From: Zhongshania sp. R06B22
GTDB lineage: Bacteria > Pseudomonadota > Gammaproteobacteria > Pseudomonadales > Spongiibacteraceae
NCBI RefSeq assembly: GCF_040892595.1
Contig: NZ_JBFRYB010000001.1
Coordinates: 1,612,001 to 1,676,000 of the forward strand
Length of the DNA: 64,000 nucleotides
Direction of reading: 5' to 3'
Position 1 is the stretch's first letter. Every line of letters begins with the position of its first letter. Below are positions 6,971 through 17,407 of the stretch, one piece after another. A model generated the notes under the pieces. That model was not told where the DNA came from and ran no database searches. It saw only the letters and a list, made by a program, of their open reading frames with translations. The translations under genes and the position numbers were made by a program.

Positions 6971-7708
6971 TTACGCGGCAAGAGAGAGCGTGCTTGGCAG
7001 TGTGCCCGCTTCTGAGATACCGAGTTCTTCGCGTAATTCATCCAGATTTCGATGATATATATTTTCCCAGTCTAAGCCGACGACACATTTTGCCTTGCTA
7101 CCAATATCGTAGCCCTTACAGAAGGCGCGAACAATGTCACCCAAGCTGTCACGTTTTTTCCAAACGTGTTGCAGGGTCAAAATAGACAGAAAAAACGCAA
7201 AGAATGAAAACTTGGGCATTTGCGCCATGTAGAATCCGGAGACCCCGTATTCACCGTTCATATTGAAATAGTGCCCGGTTAAAACATGCCAAAAGTCATG
7301 CGTTTCGTACAGGTGAGCCATTAACCAGTCGCCATCAGTATTTCCTGGTATTGGTTCGACAATATTTGGATCGATACCGCGCTCAAGAGATAAACTTGCG
7401 AAAGTATGACCAAAACTGCCAACAGGCATGCTTGCTAAGTGCTGTTGATCGATACGTTTCAGCCTGCGTCTGCTTTTCATGGCCTCTGCGACTTCAGGGT
7501 GGTCTTCTAGAAGTTCTTCGGCTAGTAGATCCCAGCGAGCGATTTTCTTACCGAACTTTGAGCGATTAAAATAGATTTCGACAATTGCAGCTTCATCTAC
7601 ATTCGCCTCCAAATCGTCAGGATCTTTAAGAACCCGCCATGTGGCGAGTACCGCTCTAAAGAAGCCACGAGGCTTACTCGAGTATTTGTAACCTTCCTGA
7701 ATTTTCAT
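6971..7708 (-). CDS. COQ4-family protein
   Basis: A COQ4-like protein of 245 residues from the chosen ATG at 7708, which has AAGAGAG seven bases upstream. The ATG at 7714 is too close to that site. The family's metal motif HDxxHx11E is intact: H-D-F-W-H, eleven residues, then E (HDFWHVLTGHYFNMNGE). Eukaryotic COQ4 takes part in coenzyme Q biosynthesis, with recent work assigning oxidative decarboxylation at ring C1. Gammaproteobacteria normally make ubiquinone without it. Lying with a PF10118 protein, an FAD monooxygenase and acyl-CoA genes, this copy may act on a quinone-like or aromatic catabolic intermediate (inference). Confidence 0.85.
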   Translation of the reverse strand: MKIQEGYKYSSKPRGFFRAVLATWRVLKDPDDLEANVDEAAIVEIYFNRSKFGKKIARWDLLAEELLEDHPEVAEAMKSRRRLKRIDQQHLASMPVGSFGHTFASLSLERGIDPNIVEPIPGNTDGDWLMAHLYETHDFWHVLTGHYFNMNGEYGVSGFYMAQMPKFSFFAFFLSILTLQHVWKKRDSLGDIVRAFCKGYDIGSKAKCVVGLDWENIYHRNLDELREELGISEAGTLPSTLSLAA

Positions 7709-7744
7709 AGACATACTCTCTTTTATTATTGCTATGCAAGACAG

Positions 7745-7777
7745 TTGCGTTAAGGTTTATTGAAAACCTTAGCGCAA
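7745..7777. terminator. 14-bp stem-loop between PF10118 and COQ4-like genes
   Basis: Arms TTGCGTTAAGGTTT (7745-7758) and AAACCTTAGCGCAA (7764-7777) pair along their whole length with one G-T wobble and a five-base loop. The hairpin lies after the stop of the PF10118 gene and before the COQ4-like start. It may end, process or attenuate the upstream transcript. Confidence 0.55.
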
Positions 7778-7793
7778 GTTAACTTTTTATTTT

Positions 7794-8678
7794 TTAAACA
7801 ACCAGATTTTGCGGCGCGTATATTTCCTTTTCATATTTCTGAATTAGGCTAGTGTTCTCATGCCCGAATGTTAGTTTATAGCTAGGCGACATGTACTCTG
7901 CCATCCGCACAGCCATCTGCCGGTATATGCCAGGGGTCGCCCATTGGTACTTTAGCAGAGCTATGCGGTTCTTGACGGAGCGGGAGTGCCCAAATCCCTC
8001 CGCAAATATGTCTAATGCGCCGTCGACGAGATTGAATACGTGTTGTGATGCGCGCAGTGCTGTCTTCATGCGGTGGCTGTAGGCATTACCCATAAAGTAG
8101 CGATATTGGTCGTGACTAACTGCACCGTGCTCGGCCTCTTCCATAAAATGCCAAACAAACAGACGCCTTGCTTGAGGATGAATTTGCGCTTGCATTGCGC
8201 GGTCATTCAGTAGAATCATTGCGAAGGAGTAAAGCCCGTGCTCTGCAGCGGAAACGAAACCCAGCTGGTCGATTGGTGTAAATCCAGCAACCATTTCCTT
8301 TAACTTATTGTCGAAGTATTGGGTTGCGCCATCAATATCGTAGCCAAGCTCTTTTAAACGATTATTGAATTTTCGGTGAGTAGAGGAGTGTAATGCCTCC
8401 TGTTTAATCATCGCATCAACATCACGTTTTAATTTGTCATCCCCAACAATGCTGTCTAGTGTGGGTTTAAGTGATTTTATGAAAAAACTTTCTATGGGAG
8501 TGGCTCCGCATGAGAATGCGGCATACAGGTAACTTAGGAATATATCGCCTTCTACAAATTGGCGTTCTACTTGGGAGAAGTCCCACTCCAAATCCCGGCG
8601 TACCGGTATATCGAACGGTGTCTGTGAGATCGTTTGTGTCTGGTTTAGGTCGTCTAAAGGAATACCGCTGTTACTCAT
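7794..8678 (-). CDS. PF10118 'metal-dependent hydrolase' family protein, di-iron-like motif (paralogue A)
   Basis: A 294-residue member of the family usually named predicted metal-dependent hydrolase (PF10118). The conserved acidic and His residues are E63 (PIESFFIKSL), E94-A-L-H97 (QEALHSSTH), E146 (AAEHGLYSF) and E181-A-E-H184 (EEAEHGAVSHDQYR). This E / ExxH / E / ExxH spacing is the classic ligand set of ferritin-like di-iron enzymes, so an oxidase or oxygenase role fits at least as well as hydrolysis (inference). A close paralogue lies at 16541-17407. The gene is codirectional with the AraC gene upstream and the COQ4-like gene downstream. Confidence 0.82.
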   Translation of the reverse strand: MSNSGIPLDDLNQTQTISQTPFDIPVRRDLEWDFSQVERQFVEGDIFLSYLYAAFSCGATPIESFFIKSLKPTLDSIVGDDKLKRDVDAMIKQEALHSSTHRKFNNRLKELGYDIDGATQYFDNKLKEMVAGFTPIDQLGFVSAAEHGLYSFAMILLNDRAMQAQIHPQARRLFVWHFMEEAEHGAVSHDQYRYFMGNAYSHRMKTALRASQHVFNLVDGALDIFAEGFGHSRSVKNRIALLKYQWATPGIYRQMAVRMAEYMSPSYKLTFGHENTSLIQKYEKEIYAPQNLVV

Positions 8679-8869: not shown

Positions 8870-9877
8870 TTACTTGGATAACAGCTCTCTTTGGAATTCG
8901 GTTGGACTCTTTCCTGTCCACCGTTTAAATCCATGATTGAAGGCGGTGATGTCGTTATATCCGAGCTTCCGGGCAAGCTGAGATATATTCATTCTTGGGT
9001 TTCTTAGCTGGGTGCGGGAATACTCAACTCGACAACGCATTAATAATTCGCGATAGCTGGTACCTTCTTTGGTCAGCGCGAATCGCAACTGACGATCAGA
9101 AAGATTTAGTTGTAAGGCAAGATCGTGCATATTTGGGGGCTGAGAGATCTGGGAAGTTAGTATTCCGCTGATTTTTTCGGAAAGCTGACCGGTAATTCTG
9201 CTGTCTTTTAATTGTTGTTCATACTCTACGCCATAGCGTTTAAACGAGGCTCGGTCAGCAAAGGGATTTGGCGTCTCTAACACTTTCTTGGGAATCACAC
9301 CTGTATTTTCACTTAAATTGATGTCAGGGCAAATGGCAAAGAACTTTTTGTACATTGCTAGATAGGTATCTGTGCAATTTCGAAGTTTTATACTGTGGAA
9401 ATTATGGCTGCCGCCAGTGACTAATGAGAGCTCAGCGGAAAGTGCAGAAAATACAGCGGCGGTGAGAAATATTTCCGCTGTTTCAGATGTCGGCAATCTG
9501 AAATCCAACGCGAAATAGCCGAAATGTTCATCTTGAGTGAAATCGAAAGTGATCAACGGTGCCTGAAGCTTCACATAACGTGCAAGAAAATGCAGGCTGT
9601 CGCCAAGCGTTGGTGCAAACTTCATGGGTATTGCGAGCGGCGCGTAGGCAGTTAGCGGAATTTGCGAACCGGCTAGAAACGCTAGCTCATGTCCTAGGGG
9701 CAGCTCAGCCATAATTTCGAAAAGACGACGTGCTTGCTCGTGCTGATCGGCGAATGGATTTTTGGCAAAGCTTTGGACTAGTTCATTTAGCTCGCCGCGG
9801 ACCGGGCTTTCGGGAGGTATCGCGTTTTCCAATATCTCCTGCAGATATACCCAGAACGTTGAGAGTGAGCCTGACAT
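8870..9877 (-). CDS. AraC-family transcriptional regulator
   Basis: A 335-residue AraC/XylS regulator. The N-terminal two-thirds resembles the arabinose-binding-like sensor domain found in many 330-340 residue AraC proteins. The last 100 residues hold two helix-turn-helix units: DLALQLNLSDRQLRFALTKE, then ISQLARKLGYNDITAFNHGFKRWTGKSPTEFQ, which matches the family signature. It is encoded 191 bp upstream of the PF10118 gene on the same strand and is a likely local regulator of it. The inducer is unknown. Confidence 0.88.
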   Translation of the reverse strand: MSGSLSTFWVYLQEILENAIPPESPVRGELNELVQSFAKNPFADQHEQARRLFEIMAELPLGHELAFLAGSQIPLTAYAPLAIPMKFAPTLGDSLHFLARYVKLQAPLITFDFTQDEHFGYFALDFRLPTSETAEIFLTAAVFSALSAELSLVTGGSHNFHSIKLRNCTDTYLAMYKKFFAICPDINLSENTGVIPKKVLETPNPFADRASFKRYGVEYEQQLKDSRITGQLSEKISGILTSQISQPPNMHDLALQLNLSDRQLRFALTKEGTSYRELLMRCRVEYSRTQLRNPRMNISQLARKLGYNDITAFNHGFKRWTGKSPTEFQRELLSK

Positions 9878-10277: not shown

Positions 10278-11501
10278 CTACTTCATATACCAGTTTTTAC
10301 CCTCTAGCATCGATTGCCACCATTGGTTCATCTCGGTTTCAGACATATCGTTCCATATCGGTGCGGATGTGACTAGTCCGTCGCCGAGGGTTCTAGAAAG
10401 GGTGACCTGTTGCCGAAGCTTGGGTGATTCCTGCAGCTGCCAGCTTTGTAAATTGTCTGAGATTGACGATGATGTGCTTTGCAATGCCTGCGCAAGGCTC
10501 AGGGCATTGTCGATGGCTTTTACCGCGCCTGAGGCTGCGTGTGGCCGAAGTACCGCTGCTGCGTCACCGATAAGTACAATGTTGCTAGTTACTAATTTCT
10601 TTGCATCGAGATCTACAATTGCTTGAACAAAAGGGGCAGATGTTTGGCGAAACAGGTTTGCGCTTAAGGCGGGAATATTATTCAGTAAGTTGCGCAGATG
10701 CTTTTTGGCAGAATCATTTAGTGAGTGTGCCGAGCTTGCTTCAGGGCTTTTCGCGTCAGGTAATAGTTTGCTAAGAAGATCGATATCGACCTTGTCGTAG
10801 ATTCCCCAGTTTAAGGTATGTTTTTGCGTTGAGGCCGAGTGTTCGCTCGCAGGAATGACATAACAGCCAGCCATTCCGCCGTTGTATGGGTGCCAGAGAA
10901 CATCGTTTTGCGGTGTGGGTATTTGCCACGCGGGCGCTGATGTTTGGTCTAGTAGCCCGCGCCATAGCACATACCCCGAATAGTTAATCTTTGTTGGGCC
11001 ATTGACTAGATCGCGGGTCCGAGAGTGGATGCCGTCTGCTGCGATCACAAGGTCTGCGAGATAGGTAGAGCCGTCGCTTAATGTGAGTACTTGGCTCTGA
11101 TCGTCATTTTGTTTGATGTCCAGGACGTCAATACCATTGATGTAGTCTTGCTCAAATACCCGTTTCCTTAGTTGTGCAAAAAGGTGGCCCCATCGCATCG
11201 AAACTGCGTCGAGTGGGCGGTGCCATATCGAACGGCCTTCTTCGGCATTGCTAGCGTCTTTTACTCTATAGCTCATACCACTTAGCGGGGTATGTGGGGT
11301 GTCTTGGTCTAGCCATTGCTGTTCCTTGAGAGACTCGAATAACGGTGTGGGTATCACGATCCCGGCGCCGCGATCCTGTAATTTACTAGAGGAGCGCTCA
11401 AAAATTTGAACATCGTGGCCGTTTTTGGCGAGTGCAATCGCCGCACTGCAACCAGCGATGGAGCCACCTACGATTGCGATTCGATATTTTTTATTTCTCA
11501 T
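10278..11501 (-). CDS. FAD-dependent monooxygenase (UbiH/PHBH-like)
   Basis: A 407-residue group A flavin monooxygenase. It shows the N-terminal FAD dinucleotide motif (IAIVGGSIAGCSAAIAL followed by an acidic EIFERS-like strand end), the DG motif (VIAADGIHSRTRD), and the GD motif (NIVLIGDAAAVLRPHAASG). Such enzymes hydroxylate aromatic or other unsaturated rings with NAD(P)H and O2, often as single components. It is followed by a TonB receptor gene upstream on the same strand (212 bp gap). It may hydroxylate the substrate or an intermediate of this locus; the substrate itself is not identifiable. Confidence 0.85.
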   Translation of the reverse strand: MRNKKYRIAIVGGSIAGCSAAIALAKNGHDVQIFERSSSKLQDRGAGIVIPTPLFESLKEQQWLDQDTPHTPLSGMSYRVKDASNAEEGRSIWHRPLDAVSMRWGHLFAQLRKRVFEQDYINGIDVLDIKQNDDQSQVLTLSDGSTYLADLVIAADGIHSRTRDLVNGPTKINYSGYVLWRGLLDQTSAPAWQIPTPQNDVLWHPYNGGMAGCYVIPASEHSASTQKHTLNWGIYDKVDIDLLSKLLPDAKSPEASSAHSLNDSAKKHLRNLLNNIPALSANLFRQTSAPFVQAIVDLDAKKLVTSNIVLIGDAAAVLRPHAASGAVKAIDNALSLAQALQSTSSSISDNLQSWQLQESPKLRQQVTLSRTLGDGLVTSAPIWNDMSETEMNQWWQSMLEGKNWYMK

Positions 11502-11713: not shown

Positions 11714-14074
11714 CTAGTAGCGGTAAGATACCGTGGCAAAGAAGTAGCGCGGATTGTTGGTGCTGGCAAAGTGCCCGCCCGAGGCTAGGATGGCATCACC
11801 ACTCCACAATTTAATCAGCTCGTCGCTTAGATTCTTACCGTGAACTTCAACGCGCCATGTGTCTAGCTGACTTTTTATGCCAATACGGGCGTTGTACAAC
11901 CAATGCGCTTCCTGGCTGTCTAGTGGATCGAGGTCAGAGTCGAATAACTCGTCGCCCTTAAAGGTTGCGTCAACACCAGCGAATAGATCGACACCCCAGT
12001 TAAATGGTTCGAACACATAGTCGAGACGGATACTACCGTTCCATTTAGGCGCGCGATGTAGGTCGCGACCACTGAGGTCGCAAACCTCATTGCTGTTGGT
12101 GGCGCTGCCAAGCAAAGCACCGGGATCTTGTGATACAGATTTTGTAGGGCAGCCACCATTGGTGTGTTTAATGAATTTTGCGTCGTTATAGCCGACGTTA
12201 CCATTCAGGATCAGCCCGGGTAGAAGCATGAGGGTACCATCGGCCTCGACGCCTCTAGATTCTACTTCTTCAGCGTTCGAGGTTATGTAGCCCAAGCCTA
12301 TAAAAGTACTGATTTGGTAGTCTTGATAGATAGTTTGGAACAAGCCGACATTCAGTCTTGCTGCGCCACCCAGTAATTCGGTTTTTACACCCAGTTCATA
12401 GGTATCTGAAGACTCGGCGTCGAATAGCACTTTGTCTGGGAAGGTTGCGCCGTTATTGAAACTACCTGCGCGAAAGCCTTGTGCATAGGTGGCGTAAAAG
12501 GTCGCTTCATCAAATGGTTCCCAGCTAAGTGAGACCTTGGGTGAGAAGTCTTTGTCAACAACCTTGGCTTCCACTTCAAAATCAACACCCGTTAATAGTG
12601 GAAAGATTGGTGCGGGTCCAGTGGAATAGGCGCCGTAGAAGCCGTCTTTCACGTCGCGAGAATATCGAGCACCTACTATTAGAGCTAATTCGTCTAACAT
12701 TTGCCATTTGGCTTGGCCAAATATAGCGGCAGACGTCGTGGAGATATCATTTAATTCAACCAGCGAGTCGACTTCATCTCCGGAGCTCCCTGTAGGAACA
12801 AGTGGAGATATTAGCCCTAAAATATCCCCGACAATGGGGAGGGAGTCGCCTAGTAGAGTATCCCCAAGGTATGTGAATACTGTGTTAGCACCTAAATAAA
12901 GAGGCAAGCTAAGTTCGGTATCTTGCTGGGCTGTGAAGTAATAAAGTCCTGCAATATACTCGAAGTCGCCCGGTGCTGAAGTGAAGCGCAGCTCCTGACT
13001 GAATTGACTGTTTTTCATGTGTATCGGCAATGCTGCTATATCAGCGGCGGTGTTGTCTATGTCACCACCCTGATTGTCTTCCAGTTCCGCGATTGAGGTT
13101 ATTGACGTAATGGTGCTGTCACCGACATCAATATTTATGGTTAGCGGAATCATATAGCCGTTACCATCAAATTGGCTATCATTGGGTGCACTGGTTCTAC
13201 GATCAAGAGTTGTTTCTAGTTTGGGGTCGAGGGTACCAACCACTAATCCTAGGTCAGTAGGGTATTCGTGATACTCATTGCCAAGCCACGTTTCAATGCG
13301 GTAGCCAAACTTCGTCGCTCCGAGGGTAATATCGAAGTTTGATTCTGGGTTGTAGCGCAGTATTAGCCGTGTTTGCTCAAGATCGCGATCACCCAGTGTT
13401 TCATTGTCGGTAACACTGTAGGTGCTGCCATCCTCAGTGCGACGTTTGGCTGCAAAGCGAAAAGAGAAGTCATCCGAGAGTGGGCCGGAGATCATTACTT
13501 CACCTTCCTGAATATTGCGCTCACCACCTGTTAGGGTGACCGAGCCTATCCATTCGTCCGAAGGTTGGCCGTTGGTAATATTAATAACACCACCTGATGC
13601 GTTCCGACCGAAAAGTGTCCCCTGTGGCCCTTTGAGGACTTCAATGCGCTCTAAATCCATAAAGCCGGGTTTGAGATAATCGCCACGTGGCAAATAGACA
13701 CCATCAAGAATAAATGCAATTGCTTGCTCACCGACTGGATTCAGCTCTGGCGAGCCGATCCCCCTCACATAGAGAGAGCTGGAGCTGTCATTCAAGGAAA
13801 TATTAGGCATGAAGCGCGCCATATCGTTAAAGCTTTTAATACCTGCGTCGCGCATATCGTCGCCACTCATGACGGCTAAGGACATTGGAACATCGCGAAC
13901 ATTTTCAGATCGCTTCTGAGCAGTAACAACGACTTCCTCGAGCCGCATCGACTGAGATCTTTTTGTTTCATCTGTCTGCGCATAGCTCGCGTTAGATAGC
14001 ATGAGGAAACTTTGTGTTAGAGCAATAGTGAGTCCGATGCTTTTTTTAGATTTAGCGTTGTATATTGGCGTCAT
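11714..14074 (-). CDS. TonB-dependent outer-membrane receptor
   Basis: A 786-residue TonB-dependent receptor. It has an N-terminal signal peptide (hydrophobic IGLTIALTQSFLML, ending near ASYAQ), then a TonB-box-like stretch and plug domain (RLEEVVVTAQKRSENVRDVP, with LERIEVLKGPQGTLFGRNA). A 22-strand-type barrel region follows, ending in an aromatic-rich last strand (FFATVSYRY). The family imports siderophores, vitamins, sugars or hydrophobic compounds across the outer membrane using TonB energy. Position beside the monooxygenase and acyl-CoA genes suggests uptake of the catabolic substrate of this locus (inference). Confidence 0.93.
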   Translation of the reverse strand: MTPIYNAKSKKSIGLTIALTQSFLMLSNASYAQTDETKRSQSMRLEEVVVTAQKRSENVRDVPMSLAVMSGDDMRDAGIKSFNDMARFMPNISLNDSSSSLYVRGIGSPELNPVGEQAIAFILDGVYLPRGDYLKPGFMDLERIEVLKGPQGTLFGRNASGGVINITNGQPSDEWIGSVTLTGGERNIQEGEVMISGPLSDDFSFRFAAKRRTEDGSTYSVTDNETLGDRDLEQTRLILRYNPESNFDITLGATKFGYRIETWLGNEYHEYPTDLGLVVGTLDPKLETTLDRRTSAPNDSQFDGNGYMIPLTINIDVGDSTITSITSIAELEDNQGGDIDNTAADIAALPIHMKNSQFSQELRFTSAPGDFEYIAGLYYFTAQQDTELSLPLYLGANTVFTYLGDTLLGDSLPIVGDILGLISPLVPTGSSGDEVDSLVELNDISTTSAAIFGQAKWQMLDELALIVGARYSRDVKDGFYGAYSTGPAPIFPLLTGVDFEVEAKVVDKDFSPKVSLSWEPFDEATFYATYAQGFRAGSFNNGATFPDKVLFDAESSDTYELGVKTELLGGAARLNVGLFQTIYQDYQISTFIGLGYITSNAEEVESRGVEADGTLMLLPGLILNGNVGYNDAKFIKHTNGGCPTKSVSQDPGALLGSATNSNEVCDLSGRDLHRAPKWNGSIRLDYVFEPFNWGVDLFAGVDATFKGDELFDSDLDPLDSQEAHWLYNARIGIKSQLDTWRVEVHGKNLSDELIKLWSGDAILASGGHFASTNNPRYFFATVSYRY

Positions 14075-15072: not shown

Positions 15073-15206
15073 CACGCCTTACAAGGTTTACAACTTCTCA
15101 TTTAAGGGGCGTATCTCTAGATTTCCCTCTTTAGTGCGTCCTATTAAATCTCTTACCTTTTTGGCGGTGCTTTGTGAATGCCGGCCCGACGCATCCGGAG
15201 ATGCTT

Positions 15207-16418
15207 ATGTCTTGGAATGAGTTAATCCCCTATTTAGTCATTGCCCCCATGACAGCCGGTGTGGGTTGGTTAACCAATTTGCTTGGCATAAAAATGATGT
15301 TTTACCCTGTTAATTTTGTTGGGGTTGGTCGTTATTTTGGCTGGCAAGGGATTATTCCACGTCTGCGTATTCGTCTCACGCGGAATTTGGTGAATATCTC
15401 TATCGCAAAAATATGTTCCCCCAAGGAGGTCGTGATGGCCCTTGACGATGGTGACGCCATCGAAAATATACAACAGTTAATTTCGCCATATATTGATGAT
15501 TGGATTGAAGATGTATTAGTGGAACAGAATGTCCAAGCATGGCAGTACACGCCAGAAAGGGTGAAGAAAATGGTTTTTGCTCGGGTCCAGGACAAGCTGC
15601 CTGGGGTCGCGCAGGCCATACTGGCAGAATTTGCGGATCGCGCCGATCAGCTTGTCGACTTTGCGCAGCTTGCTGAAAACCAGGTACGGGATAAGCCTGA
15701 ATTACTCAATGAATTGTTTCTTCGCTGCGCCGGTAGTGAGCTGCGCTTTGTGATTCGTTCTGGCTTGATGTTTGGTTTCCCCTTGGGTTGTGTGCAGGCC
15801 TTGATTTGGTATTTCTATCCTTATACTTGGGTATTACCTGTTTTCGGTGTATTTGTTGGCGCCGGTACTAATTGGATTGCACTCAAGATGATTGCGCATC
15901 CCGCTGACCCTGTCATGGTTGGCCCATTCAAGCTGCAAGGCTTGTATTTACGAAGACAGCCTGTGGTTAGTCAGGAATTTGCCGAAATTTTTACCAGTAG
16001 TTTTATGAGTCCCAAAGCCTTTATGGATTATTTATGGTTGGGGCCAAAGAGTATGGAAGTGCACAGAATTGTCCATCGCCATGTTAGAAAGGCCTTGGAT
16101 AAAAATATGTTGGGTAAAATCGCCGCGCAAATGGCGGTAACGACGGACGGCTTTGAAAAGCTGAAAAAAACGTCGGTGGAATATACCGCTGATCGGATTA
16201 TGGAAACGATAGACAACCCCGAGGCAAATCGTAAATTAGCGCTGCCGATAGTCGATCTGATCGCTAGGCGGATGTCTGCCTTGAAACCCAAGGAATTCCA
16301 GCAACTTTTATTACCTGCTTTTGAGCAGGACCAGATGTTAATTGTATTGTTGGGTGGTGTTCTTGGCGGTTTAGTCGGGTTTGCGCAGCTTATCTGGTTG
16401 TTTGGTGTTTCGATTTAA
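15207..16418 (+). CDS. DUF445 family membrane protein
   Basis: A DUF445 protein of 403 residues from the ATG at 15207, which has GGAG six bases upstream; GTG at 15174 and ATG at 15201 are poorer starts. It begins with a hydrophobic helix holding the family-type sequence TAGVGWLTNLLGIKMMF. It has a second hydrophobic pair in mid-protein (FPLGCVQALIWYFYP and GAGTNWIALKM) and ends in a membrane helix (LLGGVLGGLVGFAQLIWLF). The repeated TN-type motifs (TNLLGIKM, TNWIALKM) mark an internal duplication seen in this family. Function is not established. Confidence 0.8.
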   Translation: MSWNELIPYLVIAPMTAGVGWLTNLLGIKMMFYPVNFVGVGRYFGWQGIIPRLRIRLTRNLVNISIAKICSPKEVVMALDDGDAIENIQQLISPYIDDWIEDVLVEQNVQAWQYTPERVKKMVFARVQDKLPGVAQAILAEFADRADQLVDFAQLAENQVRDKPELLNELFLRCAGSELRFVIRSGLMFGFPLGCVQALIWYFYPYTWVLPVFGVFVGAGTNWIALKMIAHPADPVMVGPFKLQGLYLRRQPVVSQEFAEIFTSSFMSPKAFMDYLWLGPKSMEVHRIVHRHVRKALDKNMLGKIAAQMAVTTDGFEKLKKTSVEYTADRIMETIDNPEANRKLALPIVDLIARRMSALKPKEFQQLLLPAFEQDQMLIVLLGGVLGGLVGFAQLIWLFGVSI

Positions 16419-16540
16419 GGGTCATATTCAAGCGGGCTCTATGGCCAAGTATTTGTTCGATGTGACCATTCTTATGAAGGCTACGTAGTGGCAACATCTA
16501 TATCATCAAATAATTAACAATAGTTATGGAGCTCAGACCA

Positions 16541-17407
16541 ATGCAACATGCTGACCCGCAAAGCAAGCCTAGCCTATCCCAAACTCCCTTCGATATTCCG
16601 ATTCGAAGGGATCTGCGCTGGGATTTTTCTGAGGTTCCCGCAGATTTTGTAAAAGGTGGGAATCCGCTTATCAGCTATTTGTGGGCGGCCATGTCGGCAG
16701 GCGCTACGCCGATAGAAAGTTTTTTCATTAAAGCGCTATTACCTACGCTTGAAACGATAAAAGACGATGACAAGCTATTGAAAGATGTTCGGGATATGGT
16801 TGCCCAAGAGGCGCTACATTCTTCTGTGCATAATAAGCTAAATAAGCGTTTGGAATCCCAAGGCTACAATATTAAGGCTGTCCAAGAAAATTTTGGCAAA
16901 GTGCTAGGCAAGATGACCGATGGTTTAGACTCTGTAGGTATGCTGGGCGTTGTGGCGGCAGGCGAGCACTCGCTTTATTCCTTCGCGAAAATCTGGTTTC
17001 AGTGTCCAGAGATGCGTCATGATATGCATGAGCAGGCAGCTCGAGTTTTCCATTGGCATTTCTTGGAAGAAGCCGAGCATGGCGCCGTAAGCCACGACCA
17101 GTATCGCTACTTCGCACACAATAATTACTGGCATCGCCTGAAAACCACGTTTCGTGCGAGATATGTCTTTTCTATGCTTACCGACGCCATGGATATTATG
17201 GCTGAAGGCTTCGGATACAAACCTACCCTAAAGGATCGCTTCGGCTTGTTTTATTACAAGTGGTTCAAGCCTGGATTGTTTCGTCTGATGGCATTCAGAA
17301 TGATGGAATACTTGTCTCCTAGGTATGCCCTTACTTTTGAACACGATGATATAGAGCTTATGCGCCAGTGGAGTAAAGAGGTTTACGCAGATCAGCCATC
17401 TGCTTGA
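16541..17407 (+). CDS. PF10118 family protein, di-iron-like motif (paralogue B)
   Basis: This is a close paralogue of the product at 7794-8678, sharing SQTPFDIP, TPIESFFIK, QEALHSS and EEAEHGAVSHDQYRYF. Numbering from the upstream ATG at 16526, the putative metal ligands are E64, E95xxH98, E147 and E182xxH185, the same spacing as paralogue A. The ATG at 16541 is preferred because GGAG lies eight bases upstream; the ATG at 16526 has no ribosome-binding site. Two copies bracketing the TonB receptor and monooxygenase genes suggest duplication for related substrates or conditions. Confidence 0.82.
   Translation: MQHADPQSKPSLSQTPFDIPIRRDLRWDFSEVPADFVKGGNPLISYLWAAMSAGATPIESFFIKALLPTLETIKDDDKLLKDVRDMVAQEALHSSVHNKLNKRLESQGYNIKAVQENFGKVLGKMTDGLDSVGMLGVVAAGEHSLYSFAKIWFQCPEMRHDMHEQAARVFHWHFLEEAEHGAVSHDQYRYFAHNNYWHRLKTTFRARYVFSMLTDAMDIMAEGFGYKPTLKDRFGLFYYKWFKPGLFRLMAFRMMEYLSPRYALTFEHDDIELMRQWSKEVYADQPSA

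Follow-up and report, generated by a model that had tools for sequence, protein, structure and literature searches.

Proteins of the Pfam family PF10118 (Metal_hydrol) are named as metal-dependent hydrolases, and two of them are encoded within the 64,000-nucleotide stretch of Zhongshania sp. R06B22 DNA analyzed here (hereafter the window). The question raised by this locus is whether the name describes their chemistry. A sequence-only reading had argued that the name is without clear support, that both proteins carry the standard carboxylate-bridged di-iron ligand set in four helical segments, and that an O2-using oxidase or desaturase role would fit a locus that also encodes a flavin monooxygenase and a COQ4-like protein. 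Our literature search, with subscription journals and Pfam clan notes outside its reach, returned one incidental mention of PF10118 and none of a di-iron role.

Two PF10118 proteins with identically spaced candidate ligands

Both window proteins, copy A (P0002) and copy B (P0001), exceed the PF10118 gathering score of 33.2 bits (160.8 bits, E 6.3e-47 and 142 bits, E 3.4e-41, respectively), and they share 54% identity. The coordinates of the genes, their candidate ligands and their neighbors are collected in Table 1; for copy B, an in-frame ATG further upstream, at 16526, would yield a protein of 293 amino acids. Neither the PF10118 proteins nor the COQ4-like protein match any NCBIfam model. 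Likewise, a sequence search of the PDB gave no match for P0002, and the PF10118 family profile recovered chance matches only.

Table 1. Positions in the window of the two PF10118 genes, their candidate ligands and their neighbors
Feature	Position	Strand	Remarks
COQ4-like protein (PF05019)	6971..7714	minus	HDxxHx11E motif at residue 139; about 80 bases downstream of copy A
PF10118 di-iron protein copy A (P0002)	7794..8678	minus	294 aa
HxxEExxH motif, copy A (H177 E180 E181 H184)	8127..8150	minus	helix 168-196
E146, copy A ligand	8241..8243	minus	in helix 135-158
QExxH motif, copy A (Q93 E94 H97)	8388..8402	minus	helix 81-110
E63, copy A ligand	8490..8492	minus	in helix 46-74
AraC-type regulator (Arabinose_bd + HTH_18)	8870..9877	minus	
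FAD-dependent monooxygenase (PF01494, PRK07236-like)	10278..11501	minus	not BVMO type
TonB-dependent receptor	11714..14074	minus	
PF10118 di-iron protein copy B (P0001)	16541..17407	plus	288 aa
E59, copy B	16715..16717	plus	
QExxH motif, copy B (residues 89-93)	16805..16819	plus	
E142, copy B	16964..16966	plus	
HxxEExxH motif, copy B (residues 173-180)	17057..17080	plus	

The residues E63, E94xxH97, E146 and E181xxH184 of copy A lie exactly where the sequence-only reading had placed them. Their equivalents in copy B are E59, E90xxH93, E142 and E177xxH180, and the spacings, which had been described as near-identical, are in fact identical in the two proteins (31, 52 and 35). The assignment to the standard carboxylate-bridged set needs revision. 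A ferritin-like di-iron pattern is indeed present, but H177, which precedes E181 by four residues, and the conserved Q93 had been overlooked, and we have therefore changed the class from two histidines and four carboxylates to a three-histidine pattern of the AurF/CylC type. Also beyond the original six residues are an invariant E180 and the near-invariant residues H101, N105 and H147.

Conservation of the ligand set across PF10118

Of 127 dereplicated PF10118 proteins, sampled across Zhongshania and other Pseudomonadota, with contigs classed as viral and a single mycobacterial plasmid in addition, 126 retain the full set of seven AurF-type ligands. The lone exception is an open reading frame that lacks the first Glu through an N-terminal truncation. 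In the same set, Q93 is found in 124 proteins, whereas E180 and the third histidine (HxxxExxH) are found in all 127. In an earlier alignment of 68 proteins, the six original residues likewise never varied except where a sequence had a gap. Among 34 members aligned at a mean column identity of 29%, no more than 12 columns are invariant (E63, Q92, E93, H96, E144, W174, H175, E178, E179, E181, H182 and D188, numbered as in the first member). Because all seven ligands are among these few columns, the pattern represents more than chance.

Together with a Z. antarctica protein, the only other member seen, the window copies form a small, divergent subfamily. A profile scan of genome contigs with the subfamily alignment recovered the Z. 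antarctica copy alone, and a class-wide search found the subfamily to be rare. Since every ligand is kept despite this divergence, the window copies are unlikely to be degenerate, as judged from their sequences.

Predicted fold and structural matches

An AlphaFold2 model of P0002, built from 49 aligned sequences from the window and the retrieved loci, has a mean pLDDT of 87.9 and a pTM of 0.87, and it places E63, E94/H97, E146 and H177/E181/H184 in separate long helices with local pLDDT values of 94-97. The model of a canonical PF10118 member has the same ligand layout (pLDDT 92.2, pTM 0.90). Thus, in two confident models each ligand group is predicted to occupy its own helix, in agreement with the proposal of four helical segments.

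Foldseek searches of the PDB matched P0002 to R2lox, CmlI, AurF, RNR R2, acyl-ACP desaturase and UndA, and matched the canonical member to R2lox, AurF, RNR R2, CmlI and cADO. Nearly all of the top 50 matches are ferritin-like di-iron oxidases/oxygenases (FDO), RNR-R2 or ferritin-like proteins; the 50th match of the canonical member is an unrelated cyclohydrolase (probability 0.14). The best matches have probabilities of about 1.00, but their E-values are weak (best 0.011) and their TM-scores are about 0.4-0.5. Therefore, the fold class predicted by the models is clear, and it is without a close solved relative. No other hydrolase family was found for the window copies in Pfam or among the top Foldseek matches of P0002, and the zinc-hydrolase signature HExxH is absent from both window proteins. 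We judge that PF10118 proteins are very probably di-iron proteins of the ferritin-like type.

Distant homology to AurF

Comparison of the PF10118 alignment with that of the AurF family (PF11583) by hhalign gave a probability of 82 and an E-value of 1.1e-5, as against 0.078 for the best of 30 column-shuffled controls and 0.23 for the reversed alignment. In this alignment E63, E94, H97, H177, E181 and H184 coincide with AurF-type positions, and E146 lies one residue off the AurF ligand, in a helix flanked by gaps. Individual proteins do not reach this family in Pfam: P0002 scores 13.2 bits (E 0.049) against PF11583, below the gathering cut-off of 29.6 bits, and no match is listed for P0001. These profile comparisons point to a significant, distant relationship between PF10118 and AurF.

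Like PF10118, AurF and CmlI (PF11583) have a ferritin-like bundle and three histidines, and present E, ExxH, E and HxxxExxH in the same order with similar spacing. However, Q93 and E180 stand in place of D135 and D226 of AurF (PMC12101540), such that the second-sphere Asp pair of AurF (DExxH, HxxDExxH) is represented in PF10118 by QExxH and HxxEExxH. The corresponding stretches of AurF (3chh) read VDESFH and LHLRDETAH. PF10118 proteins also carry near-invariant residues beyond those of AurF (H101, N105, H147 and D190), and their genes lie in SDR/BVMO contexts rather than in the arylamine biosynthesis contexts of AurF and CmlI.

A glutamine also replaces AurF D135 in the CylC/NocO halogenases, which carry QExxH and HxxDExxH (PMC12101540), and alanine variants of all nine of the residues concerned are inactive in NocO (PMC12101540). 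By published motifs, these halogenases share QExxH, HxxxExxH and two further glutamates with PF10118. They differ in the Asp of HxxDExxH, which is Glu in every one of the dereplicated PF10118 proteins, and in the distance between the two motif glutamates, which is about 87 residues in PF10118 versus about 154 in NocO (from the published Q128 and D282). Furthermore, PF10118 clusters are without the carrier-protein and fatty-acid ligase genes of the CylC/NocO systems. Judged by these defining motifs, PF10118 is neither AurF nor CylC/NocO; it combines a CylC-type Gln with a Glu for the second Asp. R2lox and RNR R2 are the best structural matches, yet they are only about 8-16% identical over the matched region. 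Both have two histidine ligands, and the predicted PF10118 site, with three histidines as in AurF, is unlike that of R2lox.

Recurrent gene clusters predicted to consume an alcohol

The Zhongshania genome encodes 12 PF10118 paralogues in nine independent clusters. A BVMO-type or FMO-like gene lies within 4.5 kb of six of these nine clusters, an arrangement equaled in none of 200,000 permutations. Among 21 genomes that carry the family, 32 of 70 PF10118 clusters are near an FMO-like or BVMO gene versus 1.2 expected, although many of these clusters are orthologous and thus not independent. In the PF10118 tree, the members linked to a BVMO do not form one group but fall into several clades. The clustering of PF10118 with BVMO genes is non-random.

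The recurrent gene set is PF10118-SDR-BVMO, often with an alpha/beta hydrolase (esterase). It was found at eight loci (L206, L207, L209, L210, L211, L179, L181 and L200), several of which include the alpha/beta hydrolase. The BVMO and SDR labels are motif-based, with Pfam confirmation for part of them; the BVMO near a further locus (L208) comes from a genome search only, and neighboring genes outside annotated records were called with a codon-position score and are approximate. On a plasmid of Mycolicibacterium (M. chubuense NBB4), PF10118 is accompanied by an SDR, an AurF-like hypothetical protein, two FMO-like enzymes and an alpha/beta hydrolase. Because the SDR-BVMO-esterase series consumes a secondary alcohol, the step unaccounted for in these clusters is the hydroxylation that makes it. 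No conserved redox partner of PF10118 was found.

In the M. chubuense cluster, a 307-amino-acid protein (L218:9636-10559) gives a partial AurF match below the cut-off (E 4.4e-4), and this operon possibly encodes two di-iron proteins.

The window locus and its Z. antarctica relative

The flavin monooxygenase and COQ4-like neighbors named in the sequence-only reading are both real, as evident by their Pfam matches and by the HDxxHx11E motif of the latter. However, COQ4 was rejected as a functional clue, being present in only one of the 21 family genomes. The argument for an oxidase role from this locus thus loses COQ4 as a general partner, and the SDR-BVMO-esterase clusters, together with the Z. 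antarctica cluster, provide a better basis for it.

The AraC regulator and the TonB receptor of the window are 51% identical and 46% identical (over 218 amino acids), respectively, to their Z. antarctica counterparts, which lie beside the PF10118 gene of that organism. These are followed by genes for a PQQ-ADH, an ALDH, an SDR, an acyl-CoA dehydrogenase, a thiolase and an enoyl-CoA hydratase, and no other oxygenase is encoded on the contig. As read from its genes, this cluster is a predicted alcohol-to-acyl-CoA degradation set, which would be without a first oxidation unless PF10118 provides it. Zhongshania includes degraders of aliphatic hydrocarbons (PMC8478444).

The interval between the COQ4-like gene and copy A contains a 14-pair stem-loop (7745-7777) that, read on the plus strand, has a T-rich tail. 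We considered it as evidence against co-transcription of this minus-strand pair and rejected it, because it is terminator-like on the plus strand only. Copy B is adjoined by a gene for a DUF445 membrane protein (15174-16418), and on the Marinobacter plasmid pHP-187 another DUF445 protein (L219:8422-9132) is encoded two genes from PF10118.

Proposed function and alternative explanations

Considering both the site and its genetic surroundings, we judge it probable that PF10118 proteins are O2-dependent di-iron hydroxylases that make an alcohol consumed by neighboring pathways. Four helices would supply E63, E94xxH97, E146 and H177xxxE181xxH184 to form a three-histidine, four-carboxylate site for two irons. 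In its di-ferrous form, this site would activate O2, with electrons coming from a reductase, and would then hydroxylate a hydrophobic substrate, aliphatic or alicyclic, at a C-H bond. In the main family clusters, the alcohol would pass to the SDR, BVMO and esterase (subterminal oxidation). In the Z. antarctica relative it would instead pass to the PQQ-alcohol dehydrogenase, aldehyde dehydrogenase and beta-oxidation, and the window pair may perform the corresponding step in a catabolic locus that is under AraC control and has a TonB receptor for uptake.

The fold and the site are strongly supported, and it is the two irons, the use of O2, the reaction and the substrate that we infer; overall, a hydroxylase role seems reasonably likely. 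Several observations weigh against it. The flavin monooxygenase of the locus, or the P450-like genes that the window carries away from it, could perform the oxidation instead. The window pair is not itself beside a BVMO or PQQ-ADH gene, a redox partner is not a conserved neighbor, and the structural and profile comparisons include the weak E-values and the displaced E146 described above.

Chemistry of another kind at the same ferritin-like di-iron site, namely desaturation, oxidative decarboxylation or C-C cleavage, AurF-like N-oxygenation or CylC-like halogenation, appears unlikely, even though the nearest site patterns are those of an N-oxygenase (AurF) and of halogenases with QExxH (CylC/NocO), and even though copy A is closely followed by a relative of COQ4, a factor in oxidative decarboxylation. 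Both the SDR-BVMO-esterase and the ADH-ALDH-beta-oxidation clusters need a reaction that forms an alcohol, and among the neighbors identified in the recurring clusters we found no genes for amine substrates or carrier proteins. The suggestion of an O2-using oxidase or desaturase is upheld in part: the fold, the Foldseek matches and the AurF homology indicate that the proteins probably use O2, but a desaturase is not the closest analogue. It seems less likely still that these are di-metal ferritin-like proteins without oxygenase turnover, such as an R2lox-like Mn/Fe oxidase, a peroxidase or peroxide scavenger, or a metal store. R2lox, whose physiological function is unknown, does provide the top Foldseek matches; the predicted site, however, has three histidines as in AurF and unlike R2lox, and the association of the 12 paralogues with differing catabolic clusters and regulators points to substrate-specific enzymes.

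It is very improbable that PF10118 proteins are the metal-dependent hydrolases of their name, which might, for instance, hydrolyze the ester or lactone product of a BVMO. The database name and the adjoining BVMO genes would agree with such a role, but it explains less, because several clusters already contain a hydrolase (the alpha/beta hydrolase of L206, L209, L210 and the M. chubuense cluster). In fold and ligands, the proteins match di-iron proteins that activate oxygen, and our literature search returned no paper on hydrolase activity. Thus, the earlier doubt about the name was justified, as the ferritin-like di-iron fold, the ligands and the profile homology to AurF all point away from a hydrolase.

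If the hydroxylase reading is extended to the family as a whole, PF10118 may represent an unrecognized class of soluble, single-subunit, three-histidine di-iron C-H hydroxylases that start aliphatic or alicyclic catabolism upstream of SDR/BVMO/esterase or ADH/ALDH steps in Proteobacteria and mycobacteria, with 8-12 copies in some genomes and further members on contigs classed as viral. We propose this broader description tentatively, with somewhat less than even confidence. The AlkB, CYP153 and sMMO-like hydroxylases resemble PF10118 in the proposed first C-H oxidation and in having ADH, ALDH, BVMO and AraC regulator genes as neighbors; they are either membrane or haem proteins with no relationship to PF10118, or di-iron enzymes of several subunits whose site has two histidines. 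Should the family consist of oxygenases, the opening reaction of many catabolic clusters would be supplied, and alkane or cycloalkane hydroxylases may come in one more type. The three-histidine site of AurF/CylC, to date associated with N-oxygenation and halogenation, would then reach into catabolism as well.

Distribution of PF10118

This family is widespread under a misleading name: PF10118 was found in 44 of 299 sampled genomes of the phylum, with up to 12 copies per genome. It is also present on at least 50 contigs classed as viral (IMG/VR, L072-L145), some of them 259-345 kb in length, and in phage records (H1-H12) that comprise Acinetobacter phage MD-2021a contigs, Pseudomonas phage OQ658364 and Synechococcus phage BUCT-ZZ01. 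Some A. baumannii records have 8-9 places that match P0002, and in one record of this species (L222:5886-7879) a tandem PF10118 pair lies between tuf and rimI. Two further arrangements, both in the Zhongshania genome, involve small proteins with no Pfam match. At L213:4605-7582, a head-to-tail PF10118 pair has a 162-amino-acid protein of this kind on each side, and at L212:13453-14824 another PF10118 gene overlaps the gene for one of 158 amino acids.
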